Virus record (IMG/VR): IMGVR_UViG_3300048136_000044
Location: 1-23,630 of that record
Direction: 5' to 3' (one strand)
DNA length: 23,630 nt
Origin: a virus
Shown here: positions 2,963 to 6,703 of the stretch, one piece after another
Layout of the letters: each line of letters begins with the position of its first letter
Numbering within the stretch: position 1 is the first letter of the stretch
Position numbers and translations under genes: made by a program
Notes under the pieces: model-generated
Database searches by the model: none
What the model saw: the letters and a program-made list of their open reading frames with translations, nothing else
What the model was told of the DNA's origin: nothing

Positions 2963-3577
2963 ATGACCAGCATTACGAATCTTGAGGTCGTCTATCTAAA
3001 GACGGCTGACATAATCCCCTACGTTAATAATCCTCGCGAACACCCTGAAGAACAGATCACGCATATTGCATCCAGCATCAAGGAATTTGGATTCACCAAT
3101 CCTATCCTAGTTGACGAGACAAGTAGCGTTATAGCAGGGCATGGCCGTCTCATGGCCGCTAAGAAGCTCGGGCTAGAGGAAATCCCTACAATCACGTTAT
3201 CAGGACTCACAGAAGCTCAGAGAAAGGCTTATGTGATTGCAGACAACCAGATGGGATTAACGTCTGAATGGGATGACGATCTATTAAAGCTCACGTTGCA
3301 AGAGCTATCCGACATGGAATTCAATCTTCAACTTCTCGGCTGGGGAGACAACATACCTGAGTTCGTTGAGGCTCCTGATTACGGGATTCTCGATGATGAA
3401 GATTTAGACGATCAGCTAGATGAAATGGCTGGCGGAGTGAAAAAGGCTATCCAGATCGAATTTGAGCCAGAACACTACGAAGAAGCGCAGGAGCTCGTCA
3501 AATTCTGGCGAGAGCAAGGCGGCTACATCGGAATGTTCCTGATTGATAAGCTCAGAGACGAAAAGGATAAACTATGA
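2963..3577 (+). CDS. ParB-like nuclease/CTPase domain protein
   Basis: The first 100 residues of this 204-residue protein are a ParB/Srx-type domain. IPYVNNPREHPEEQ is followed by SIKEFGFTNPILVDE and by AGHGRLMAAKKLG (58-70), the counterpart of the GxxRxxA box. ADNQMG (93-98) closes the domain. Phage proteins of this family commonly sit beside DNA methyltransferases or terminases, with proposed roles in DNA nicking or DNA-modification control. The last 60 residues are acidic and then form an alpha-beta tail. I start at ATG 2963, five bases after GGAG. An in-frame TTG at 2903 lies in the leader and has no RBS. The 3' end overlaps the FkbM gene as ATGA. Domain call firm; biochemical role open. 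Confidence 0.85.
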   Translation: MTSITNLEVVYLKTADIIPYVNNPREHPEEQITHIASSIKEFGFTNPILVDETSSVIAGHGRLMAAKKLGLEEIPTITLSGLTEAQRKAYVIADNQMGLTSEWDDDLLKLTLQELSDMEFNLQLLGWGDNIPEFVEAPDYGILDDEDLDDQLDEMAGGVKKAIQIEFEPEHYEEAQELVKFWREQGGYIGMFLIDKLRDEKDKL

Positions 3578-4269
3578 AAACAGAGCGCGGCGCACTCAGA
3601 GGCATCGAATTTATCCACAGGGTTGGATTCTCTGATCTCAAGACGTTTGAAGAAGTCATTGGCAGAGACACATACCAGAAACGAGGCCTAAAGATCGAGG
3701 CTGGCGAATCATGGCTAGACTGTGGTGGTAACGTAGGCGCATTCGCTCTACTGGCCTGTTCGCTCGGGGCAAAGGTCAAGATATTTGAGCCTGATCCATA
3801 TAACTGCGAGATGATCGAAAAGAATCTCGATCTGAACGGCTTCAAAGCTGAGATCAAACAAGCCGCATTGGTGCATAACGACACCAAAGAAGTCACGCTA
3901 TTCATCGGCAACAACAATAACGTCTGGCGCAACTCAATCGTCAAGAAATGGAATAAGCTCGGCCTCAAGGTTCCGGCAGTTAATTTCGATCAAGAGGCTT
4001 TCGGGTGGGATTGCTGTAAAATGGACATCGAAGGCGCAGAGATGCCAATCCTGGAGACGACAGAAACTCGATTCCAGAAACTGGTATACGAATGGTCGTT
4101 CGACATTGATCCAAGTCTGACGCGCCTATGGGACGTCCTAGACCAGCAGAAAAAGAAATATCGGGTTGAAGCACCATGGCATTCAATCTGTTATGACGAC
4201 AAACGCGAGACGCAATGGCAGAAATCATGGTTTCCTGCTTGCGCCAACATATTCTGTTTCGAGAAATGA
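3574..4269 (+). CDS. FkbM-family SAM-dependent methyltransferase
   Basis: This 231-residue protein has a class I Rossmann methyltransferase core. The SAM-binding glycine motif is LDCGGNVGAF (48-57). The acidic end of strand 2 is FEPDP (71-75). The FkbM hallmark KMDIEGAE is at 149-156. FkbM enzymes usually O-methylate hydroxyl groups on sugars or polyketides. It is coupled by ATGA overlaps to ParB upstream and to the oxygenase downstream. The three products may therefore act on the same substrate, for example a modified base, a virion glycan or a host surface glycan. No glycosyltransferase is visible in the window. Family assignment is firm; substrate unknown. Confidence 0.85.
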   Translation: MKTERGALRGIEFIHRVGFSDLKTFEEVIGRDTYQKRGLKIEAGESWLDCGGNVGAFALLACSLGAKVKIFEPDPYNCEMIEKNLDLNGFKAEIKQAALVHNDTKEVTLFIGNNNNVWRNSIVKKWNKLGLKVPAVNFDQEAFGWDCCKMDIEGAEMPILETTETRFQKLVYEWSFDIDPSLTRLWDVLDQQKKKYRVEAPWHSICYDDKRETQWQKSWFPACANIFCFEK

Positions 4270-5039
4270 AGACAGTAGAGCTAAAGCGCATAGCGCATAA
4301 CGTCAAGATCGGAGACAAGCCTAAAGAGCTAGAGCCGACACTTTTCGAGGATTCCTTGTTCGTAGAGAACGGGGAACCAGTAGGCTTTTACATCGCAAAA
4401 ATCCCTGAGAAACTTCAGAAGCTCGTAGACATCGCAGACTATGAGCTAAACAGCAAACGTGTACCGAAGTCAGAGATGAAGCGATCCAGTGGTCTGAGAG
4501 ACGATGCCATGGATGTACGACAATACTCTTGCATCATAGGATCGATTCCACCGAAGCCCCATATGCGGCGAGCCTATGCAACCAAGTCATCTGTCCATGC
4601 TGTTGATTCTGCTAGGGTTTTTGTCAAGGCGATGACTCTGGCCGGTATCGAAGGATTGAAGATAATCGATGCTGTCAGCCCAGAACTCTATAAGGTTCAC
4701 AAGGAATCTGTTGAAGGAAAGGTTCCAGAGAAATGGCGATTCGCTGATCTGTTCACGAGCTCGATCAGCAACTACAACATTAGCGCAGGAATCCATCAGG
4801 ACAATCTTAACGTGAAAGGCGCACTGAACGTCATTATCACGAAGCGTAAGAACTCTACTGGCGGAAACCTGTATATCCCTGATTACGAAACAACGCTCAA
4901 TAGCGCAGACAACTCGATGCTGGTCTATCCGGCATGGCGGAACATGCATGGCGTTACACCAATCATTCCAACTCACAAAGGCGGCTATCGTAATAGCTTA
5001 GTCTGGTACGCATTAGACTCGTTCAGTAAGGCAGGATGA
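4266..5039 (+). CDS. 2OG-Fe(II) dioxygenase, Tet/JBP-like or prolyl-hydroxylase-like
   Basis: The C-terminal half of this 257-residue protein shows a double-stranded beta-helix dioxygenase. The iron ligands are H177-x-D179 (GIHQDN) and H228 (MHGV), and R242 (GGYRNS) is the likely 2-oxoglutarate anchor. The preceding N-x-N segment (SISNYNIS) and the GGNLYIP strand between the ligands look like the Tet/JBP family, which oxidises methyl groups on DNA bases. The 51-residue H-to-H spacing also fits. Prolyl-4-hydroxylase-like enzymes share the same ligand pattern, so the substrate is not settled. The N-terminal 120 residues are unassigned. I chose ATG 4266, an ATGA overlap with the methyltransferase stop, over ATG 4215, which would overlap by 55 bases. 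The terminase genes start one base after the stop. Confidence 0.7.
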   Translation: MKTVELKRIAHNVKIGDKPKELEPTLFEDSLFVENGEPVGFYIAKIPEKLQKLVDIADYELNSKRVPKSEMKRSSGLRDDAMDVRQYSCIIGSIPPKPHMRRAYATKSSVHAVDSARVFVKAMTLAGIEGLKIIDAVSPELYKVHKESVEGKVPEKWRFADLFTSSISNYNISAGIHQDNLNVKGALNVIITKRKNSTGGNLYIPDYETTLNSADNSMLVYPAWRNMHGVTPIIPTHKGGYRNSLVWYALDSFSKAG

Positions 5040-5040
5040 T

Positions 5041-5418
5041 ATGGCAAAGAATGGTAGGCAAGGTGAAGGCGGAGGCCGTCCAGTAGTCGTATTCGATGAT
5101 CGTGATATCGCTCAATGCGAAGCTTTAGCGGCTGTACTTAATAAAGAGCAGATCGCAGACTATTTCGGCATCGATCAGAACACTTTACGAGCCGTAGAGA
5201 AGCGACAGCCGGAAGTATTTCATGCACTAAAAAAAGGAAAAGCCAAAGCAATAGCGGGTGCAGGCATGAATCTGATGCAACAGAGCAAACGTGGGATCAC
5301 CACAGCGACGATCTTTTACCTGAAGACACAAGGCGGTCCACAGTGGCGAGAGAACCAAACTGGCGGCTCTGGTGGCAATGTCGTACTGCAAGTAGTGAAC
5401 CCGAATGAAGTGGATTGA
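5041..5418 (+). CDS. terS: Terminase small subunit
   Basis: This 125-residue protein starts one base after the oxygenase and overlaps the large terminase by 14 bases. Residues about 20-55 form an HTH (LNKEQIADYFGIDQNTLRAV) as in small terminases that recognise the packaging site. A helical middle (KGKAKAIAGAGMNLMQQ) fits an oligomerisation segment. ATIFYLKTQGGPQWRE is a recurrent signature of TerS-like phage proteins, and the Gly/Val-rich end may contact TerL. The call rests on HTH, size and position. A generic HTH regulator is possible but less likely here. Confidence 0.8.
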   Translation: MAKNGRQGEGGGRPVVVFDDRDIAQCEALAAVLNKEQIADYFGIDQNTLRAVEKRQPEVFHALKKGKAKAIAGAGMNLMQQSKRGITTATIFYLKTQGGPQWRENQTGGSGGNVVLQVVNPNEVD

Positions 5419-6703
5419 AGTCGACGAGCCTGAGATCTGGGAGCCATCGGAAGTTGATGAGGTCAAACGCATCAATCCGACTATTCCGCAATGGCAGTAT
5501 ATTTACAGCAAAGCACAGTTTCCTGCATTCGTAGCAGGGTTCGGAGCCGGCAAGACTGAAGCCGCTATCCTGCGCTGTATCTTTGGGCTGTTAGAGAACC
5601 CGAAATGTAACAGAGGATTCTACGAGCCTACCTACGATTTGATCCGCATGATCGCATGGCCTCGATTTGAGGCAACGCTGACAGAGCTTGGATTACCTTA
5701 CAAGCTAACCAAGAGCCCACAGAACCAGATAGAAATTGAAGGCTACGGTACGATCTTCTTTCGCTCGATGGATAACGCAACCAGAATCATCGGTTACGAG
5801 CACGCAGACGCTGACATTGACGAGCTAGACACACTGAAACGCGACGATGCGGCATACGTCTGGCGTCAGATACTTTCTCGTAATCGTCAGCACAAGCCGA
5901 ATGCACAGCACAACACTATCGGAGTCACTACAACGCCTGAAGGCTTCAGATTCGTCTACGAGACATGGAAGCGTGACCCTAAAAGCGGCTATGAGATTAT
6001 CCAAGCTCCAACCTATTCCAATCCGCATTTGCCAGAGGGATACGTGAAGTCGCTACAAGACGTCTATCCTGCTAACCTATTGGATGCGTATCTGGAAGGC
6101 AGATTCGTGAACCTAATCTCAGGAACGGTCTACTCTAGCTATGACAGGACAGCGCACAATTCGCAGGAGACGATTAAAGAAGGGGAGCCGCTTTTCATCG
6201 GCTGTGACTTCAACGTCACCCAACAAGCCGCAACGGTCTACGTCCAGCGAGAAGGAGGAGTCGTCTGGCACGCAGTCGACGAGCTAGTCAATATGTATGA
6301 CACGCCGGATATGATCGAAATCATCAAAAGCCGATACCAAAACCACAAAATCTATGTTTATCCTGACGCTTCAGGCGGTGCGAGAAAGACTGTTAATGCG
6401 AGCCTTTCTGATATTGCGCTTTTACAGCAAGCAGGCTTTACAGTCAGGGCTAAGAAAACGAATCCGATGATACGAGATCGGGTTATGTCGACTAATGCCG
6501 CTTTCGAGGCCGGCAGGATTAGAGTCAACGCAGTGAAGTGTCCGACAGTGGCGTCATGTCTAGAGCAACAGGTCTATCGTAATGGCGAGCCAGACAAGAC
6601 GAGCGGTAACGATCACCAAAACGATGCCACTACTTATCCGATCGCCTACGAGATGCCGATCATCAAGCCAGTAGCAAATGTAGATTTCAATTTTGCGCTG
6701 TAA
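5405..6703 (+). CDS. terL: Terminase large subunit (ATPase-nuclease)
   Basis: This 432-residue motor protein pumps DNA into the prohead and cuts concatemers. The N-terminal ATPase has a Walker A-like loop (GFGAGKTEA, 45-53), a Walker B (ADIDELD, 136-142) and a coupling segment (GVTTTPEG, 173-180). The C-terminal RNase H-like nuclease shows acidic motifs GCDFN (266-270) and YPDASGG (319-325), and D407 in the DHQNDAT segment. Length is normal for the terminase_6/GP17 class, so the gene looks intact. It overlaps terS by 14 bases. A 50-base gap separates it from the portal gene. Confidence 0.95.
   Translation: MKWIEVDEPEIWEPSEVDEVKRINPTIPQWQYIYSKAQFPAFVAGFGAGKTEAAILRCIFGLLENPKCNRGFYEPTYDLIRMIAWPRFEATLTELGLPYKLTKSPQNQIEIEGYGTIFFRSMDNATRIIGYEHADADIDELDTLKRDDAAYVWRQILSRNRQHKPNAQHNTIGVTTTPEGFRFVYETWKRDPKSGYEIIQAPTYSNPHLPEGYVKSLQDVYPANLLDAYLEGRFVNLISGTVYSSYDRTAHNSQETIKEGEPLFIGCDFNVTQQAATVYVQREGGVVWHAVDELVNMYDTPDMIEIIKSRYQNHKIYVYPDASGGARKTVNASLSDIALLQQAGFTVRAKKTNPMIRDRVMSTNAAFEAGRIRVNAVKCPTVASCLEQQVYRNGEPDKTSGNDHQNDATTYPIAYEMPIIKPVANVDFNFAL

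Follow-up and report, generated by a model that had tools for sequence, protein, structure and literature searches.

The IMG/VR virus record IMGVR_UViG_3300048136_000044, a linear fragment of a marine phage genome, 23,630 bases long and analysed here over its whole length (the window), carries a three-gene cassette encoding a ParB_N-domain protein (ParB), an FkbM-family methyltransferase (FkbM) and a Tet/JBP-family dioxygenase (TET). We consider it probable that this cassette directs a post-replicative hypermodification of DNA bases, in which TET makes 5-hydroxymethyluracil (5hmU) from thymine and FkbM O-methylates the hydroxyl. The proposal is founded on the character of the oxygenase, on the genomic position of the methyltransferase and on the enzymes that replace it in related phages.

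In the proposed pathway, the TET/JBP enzyme would hydroxylate thymines of the phage DNA at their methyl group, FkbM would move the methyl group of S-adenosylmethionine (SAM) onto the 5hmU hydroxyl to yield 5-(methoxymethyl)uracil, and the modification would be complete before packaging by the adjacent terminase. Related phages have a glycosyltransferase (GT), an amino-acid transferase or a P-loop kinase in place of FkbM, and these enzymes would likewise act on the TET-made hydroxymethyl group. A first-pass annotation of the window had already paired hydroxylation with O-methylation on DNA, with ParB as the targeting factor. Exchange of the enzymes at the FkbM position and the TET-like oxygenase lend this pairing strong comparative support, with the chemistry itself predicted from sequence, while targeting by ParB found none.

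The oxygenase resembles TET enzymes

Sequence, predicted fold and predicted active site agree that the oxygenase is TET-like. All 56 of its relatives (51-79% identical) match the Pfam family Tet_JBP (PF12851), the best at 4e-14; the window protein itself matches at E 9.8e-7, with 28.6 bits against a curated cut-off of 34.9. The residues that the first-pass annotation had noted in Tet/JBP-like surroundings, H177-x-D179, H228 and R242, are invariant in an alignment of the 56 sequences. H177, D179 and H228 are the predicted Fe(II) ligands, R242 the predicted 2-oxoglutarate arginine and Y248 the predicted base-stacking residue. A profile alignment to TET2 equates R242 with R1896 and Y248 with Y1902, the tyrosine that in TET2 stacks on the base (PMC4787775). 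N182 is placed three residues past the HxD motif, likewise in TET2, and an R-x-S-x-V-x-Y-A-L motif is common to the window oxygenase and the TETs of Tonitrus-type actinophages.

The AlphaFold2 model of the oxygenase (predicted local distance difference test, pLDDT, 92.4), a TET-type double-stranded beta-helix, gives the same picture. In a Foldseek search ranks 1-26 were all TET-family structures (CcTet, TET2, NgTET1 and CMD1; best E 1.3e-10), and by Z score the predicted structure lies closest to NgTET1 (19.1; 2.8 A over 211 residues) and TET2 (19.0), followed by FTO (14.7); TET structures thus outrank both FTO and AlkB. The basic isoelectric point (pI) of 9.3 fits the expectation for an enzyme acting on DNA. 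Assignment as a prolyl or lysyl hydroxylase was rejected, since none of the 56 relatives matches such a Pfam family and TET folds rank at the top. The label 'queuine tRNA-ribosyltransferase', attached to this oxygenase family in phrog_6059 and in NC_ records, is contradicted by both Pfam and fold. Phage MED4-184 (L081:15790-17914) provides an example of such misnaming: RefSeq calls its ParB a 'DNA methylase' and its TET a 'queuine tRNA-ribosyltransferase'.

FkbM occupies an exchangeable slot between ParB and TET

Co-occurrence was assessed by searching IMG/VR with FkbM alone and with TET. The trio is associated far beyond chance, as the search with FkbM alone recovered 80 loci and all 80 show the order ParB-FkbM-TET. 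Among the wider set of relatives, the slot between ParB and TET is filled by FkbM, by a TET-associated glycosyltransferase (TAGT; PF20691, 5e-20), by a P-loop kinase, at L057 by a set of P-loop kinase, glutamine amidotransferase (GATase) and amino acid:DNA transferase (ADDT; PF18724, 1e-18), by a GT-like protein, or by nothing. Because the gene in this slot swaps among decorating enzymes, FkbM is, judged by gene order, in the position of an enzyme that decorates a TET-made hydroxyl.

In 149 distinct TET nucleotide sequences, a set enriched for FkbM by the use of FkbM as one query, the slot holds FkbM in 114, a TAGT-type enzyme in 19, nothing in 6, a kinase in 3, ADDT in 1 and another gene in 1, and is cut in 5. 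For 61 representatives placed on a TET tree the corresponding counts are FkbM 44, TAGT 8, none 4, kinase 2, ADDT 1 and other GT-like 2. On this tree the state FkbM versus other changes at least 14 times, with 11 changes forced by well-supported branches, and the slot labels cluster no more than shuffled labels do, which is consistent with rapid exchange.

The two commonest occupants do not coincide: in 37 cassette records FkbM is present in 23, TAGT in 5 and both in none. In one more TAGT contig (L211) a distant and partial match to FkbM lies at another place, on the opposite strand, and in L019 and L020 the TAGT gene lies just upstream of ParB instead of in the slot. TAGT (PF20691) is absent from the window and from a 37.3 kb contig (G001) whose cassette proteins are near-identical to those of the window, and a scan of open reading frames (ORFs) from the window cassette region and from this contig recognised no further GT. 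The first-pass annotation had remarked that a hydroxylation and O-methylation pair that does without a GT would be unusual; genomes with FkbM in the slot encode no TAGT.

Loci with an empty slot have no obvious decorating enzyme among their upstream ORFs; one (L060) retains a short, stop-terminated FkbM remnant, and three others (L037, L181 and L015), with no such enzyme nearby, might carry plain 5hmU. At L068:7547-8431 the slot encodes a 294-residue protein with no Pfam or PHROG match, which we read as GT-like.

The trio recurs in a second phage lineage

A tblastn search with FkbM among isolates also matched Pelagibacter phage HTVC112P (27% identity, 1e-13), which has its own set in the order ParB (gp17), TET (gp18), FkbM (gp19). 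Its gp18 (L223:4094-5002), annotated as a DnaJ chaperone/SNF2 protein, matches Tet_JBP at 1.1e-29 with 103 bits. By these sequence matches, the association of ParB, TET and FkbM is present in two distant phage lineages. In IMG/VR relatives of HTVC112P, FkbM is again replaced, either by TAGT and a cytidylyltransferase-like gene or by an ADDT fusion and a kinase. The latter arrangement is found at L258:5890-8549, where TET is directly followed by a 712-residue protein (ADDT at the C terminus, N-terminal part unassigned) and then by a P-loop kinase.

The ADDT fusion and kinase of L258 may form a compact hypermodification pair. At L255:5894-7424 TET is followed by TAGT and, beside it, a cytidylyltransferase/mannose-6-phosphate-isomerase-like fusion, which hints that a nucleotide-sugar is made specially for the base. 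In Bolt007 (L218:4698-8011) the order ParB-TET-GT-glucosaminyl deacetylase suggests that the base carries an amino sugar.

Thymine is the likely substrate

The first-pass annotation had left the base unnamed and raised the question of a DNA methylase elsewhere in the genome. Of 49 cassette records, 47 lack a C5-cytosine methyltransferase (PF00145; 28/30 and 19/19), including complete P-HS2, complete HTVC112P and the 37.3 kb contig, and the window lacks one as well. The thymidylate-synthase family (PF00303), whose dUMP or dCMP hydroxymethylases supply hydroxymethyl nucleotides in phages of the SP8, M6 and T4 type, is absent from 35 of 35 records. As the window and many cassette records are fragments, these absences are strongest for the complete isolates. 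On the available sequences, no origin of a hydroxymethyl group other than TET is evident, and thymine is the likely substrate because it alone already bears a methyl group without the help of another phage enzyme.

The alternative slot occupants point the same way. Kinases of known pathways, the 5-hydroxymethyldeoxyuridine (5hmdU) DNA kinases, act on 5hmU in DNA (PMC6449724), so a kinase and ADDT in the slot suggest that 5hmU is the modified base. Phage Tonitrus encodes a ParB, a TET-like protein, an aGPT-Pplase and a 5hmU kinase, for which thymidine hypermodification has been proposed (PMC11955845). The residue eight positions past the arginine was considered as a marker of thymine or cytosine specificity, as the profile alignment places a histidine of TET2 at L250 of the window oxygenase. 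It is suggestive only, for HTVC112P has an arginine there.

Alternative explanations

Several points weigh against the proposed pathway. The window protein scores below the Pfam cut-off for Tet_JBP, and FkbM enzymes are not known to use DNA. With respect to the base, TAGT enzymes have been characterised on 5-hydroxymethylcytosine (5hmC), two relatives do carry a C5-methyltransferase, and 5-methylcytosine (5mC) made by the host could feed TET. Finally, two members of the second lineage (L253 and L264) have a methyltransferase and a GT together, an arrangement equally compatible with a methylated sugar.

The strongest competitor, which we nevertheless regard as unlikely, is that the host, or a phage enzyme that escaped detection, supplies 5mC, which TET oxidises to 5hmC and FkbM converts to 5-methoxymethylcytosine at restricted motifs. 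In addition to the TAGT and C5-methyltransferase observations above, all solved TET-family matches act on DNA containing 5mC or N6-methyladenine (6mA). Against it stand the absence of PF00145 from nearly all cassette records, complete phages included, the action of the kinase and ADDT partners on 5hmU in known pathways, and the leucine of the window oxygenase in place of the TET2 histidine.

Somewhat less likely still is that FkbM leaves the hydroxymethyl oxygen alone and methylates a later attachment to the base, such as a sugar that comes from the host or went unrecognised. Sugars are frequent acceptors of FkbM-family O-methyltransferases, and the methyltransferase beside a GT in L253 and L264 would suit this explanation; the mutual exclusion of FkbM and TAGT across the 37 cassette records, and the lack of any other recognised GT in the scanned ORFs of the window cassette region and its 37.3 kb relative, count against it.

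The predicted structure of FkbM invites a third explanation. Its AlphaFold2 model (pLDDT 92.6) has a Rossmann methyltransferase fold, and D49, G51, N53, G55, E72, D74, K149-M-D-I-E-G154 and E156 are invariant in 47 relatives. The nearest structural neighbours, RlmLK, Trm5 and RumA, methylate RNA bases, as if FkbM were a DNA base methylase supplying the methyl group that TET oxidises. This we think improbable: the thymine methyl is already present, FkbM shows no invariant catalytic cysteine (C50 and C148 both vary), and phages with TAGT, kinase, ADDT or an empty slot would have no methyl supply. The Rossmann methyltransferase fold is so common that such neighbours are weak evidence on the substrate. 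Least probable of all is a product unrelated to DNA, such as a glycan on the host surface or a protein of the virion, with FkbM merely hitch-hiking beside TET, for although FkbM is common in polysaccharide loci, it adjoins TET in 80/80 FkbM loci, pairs with TET in two distant lineages and is swapped mainly with families of DNA-decorating enzymes. FkbM remains our proposed O-methyltransferase of the hydroxymethyl base.

Organisation of the locus

The cassette genes and the neighbouring terminase genes are listed in Table 1. ParB overlaps FkbM, and FkbM overlaps the oxygenase gene, through ATGA sequences at 3574-3577 and 4266-4269; the last base of the oxygenase gene is 5039 and the first base of terS is 5041, exactly the layout of two overlaps and a one-base gap that the first-pass annotation had described. 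A megablast search of the window against phages gave no match.

Table 1. Genes of the cassette and the adjoining terminase in the window.
Feature	Positions	Strand	Evidence
ParB_N-domain protein, 204 aa, first cassette gene	2963..3577	+	ParB_N (PF02195) 5.4e-8, 33.2 bits, cut-off 26.3; phrog_620 7e-52
FkbM-family SAM-dependent methyltransferase, 231 aa, in the exchangeable slot	3574..4269	+	Methyltransf_21/FkbM (PF05050) 1.3e-8, 35.5 bits, cut-off 22.7
Tet/JBP-family Fe(II)/2-oxoglutarate dioxygenase, 257 aa	4266..5039	+	PF12851; invariant residues; AlphaFold2 model
Terminase small subunit (terS), directly 3' of TET; context, outside the proposed chemistry	5041..5418	+	phrog_309 3e-14
Terminase large subunit (TerL)	5405..6703	+	PF17289/PF03237; synteny

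TerL lies less than 1.5 kb downstream of TET in 143/143 loci with a detected TerL. This proximity, together with the expected action of TET on the DNA polymer, suggests that modification precedes packaging. We infer this timing, as well as the substrate base, the acceptor oxygen and a protective role of the modification.

ParB adjoins TET in nearly all relatives. The idea that it targets the enzymes to DNA is not supported, because the protein is strongly acidic (pI 4.3, charge about -25) and contains ParB_N alone, with no helix-turn-helix family among its Pfam matches up to E 1, bearing in mind that a missing match does not prove a missing domain.

Relation to known systems and significance

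We hold it about as likely as not that 5-(methoxymethyl)uracil is a natural methyl ether of DNA, made in a slot whose capping enzymes (adding methyl, sugar, phosphate or amino acid) turn over rapidly, as if phage and host were racing over how the 5hmU hydroxyl is recognised. The proposed pathway predicts an ether on a DNA base and, for FkbM enzymes, DNA as a substrate. Marine phages have repeatedly swapped the putative capping enzyme while the ParB-TET module stayed fixed, so host defences may select on the cap and not on the hydroxyl. Looking ahead, base modification in Prochlorococcus and Pelagibacter phages is directly testable, as P-HS2, MED4-184, MED4-117 and HTVC112P are available as isolates, P-HS2 and HTVC112P being cultured, and new pairs of TET and methyltransferase would be useful for labelling or protecting 5hmU or 5hmC in DNA.

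Phage TETs with decorating enzymes are already known; a methyltransferase cap in place of a GT or kinase appears to be new as far as we found. In the open literature no paper linked FkbM to phage DNA modification or to a hydroxymethyl group, and as coverage of phage TET is incomplete, priority is uncertain. FkbM-family O-methyltransferases (PF05050) share their sequence family, motifs and Rossmann fold with the window protein, whereas their known acceptors are small molecules or sugars and we propose DNA.

The closest parallels lie in phage DNA hypermodification. As in the thymidine hypermodification of M6, ViI, phiW-14 and the Tonitrus-type actinophages, a hydroxymethyl pyrimidine would be decorated after replication; the kinase and ADDT of those pathways occupy the FkbM slot in close relatives of the window, and Tonitrus-type phages also have ParB and TET-like genes. 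The window differs in having a methyltransferase in place of kinase and transferase. In M6, ViI and phiW-14, moreover, 5hmdU is made at the nucleotide level, whereas the window group lacks a thymidylate-synthase-family gene and TET is the likely source. Phage TET and TAGT systems similarly combine a TET/JBP oxygenase with a decorating enzyme, and TAGT occupies the identical slot in relatives of the window; the characterised systems use 5mC, whereas the window has FkbM, no TAGT and no recognised C5-methyltransferase. A further likeness is to base J of kinetoplastids, where the Tet/JBP enzymes JBP1 and JBP2 convert thymine to 5hmU and a glucosyltransferase then caps the hydroxyl: both systems would join a Tet/JBP enzyme to a hydroxyl cap, glucose in kinetoplastids and, as we propose, methyl in the window phage.
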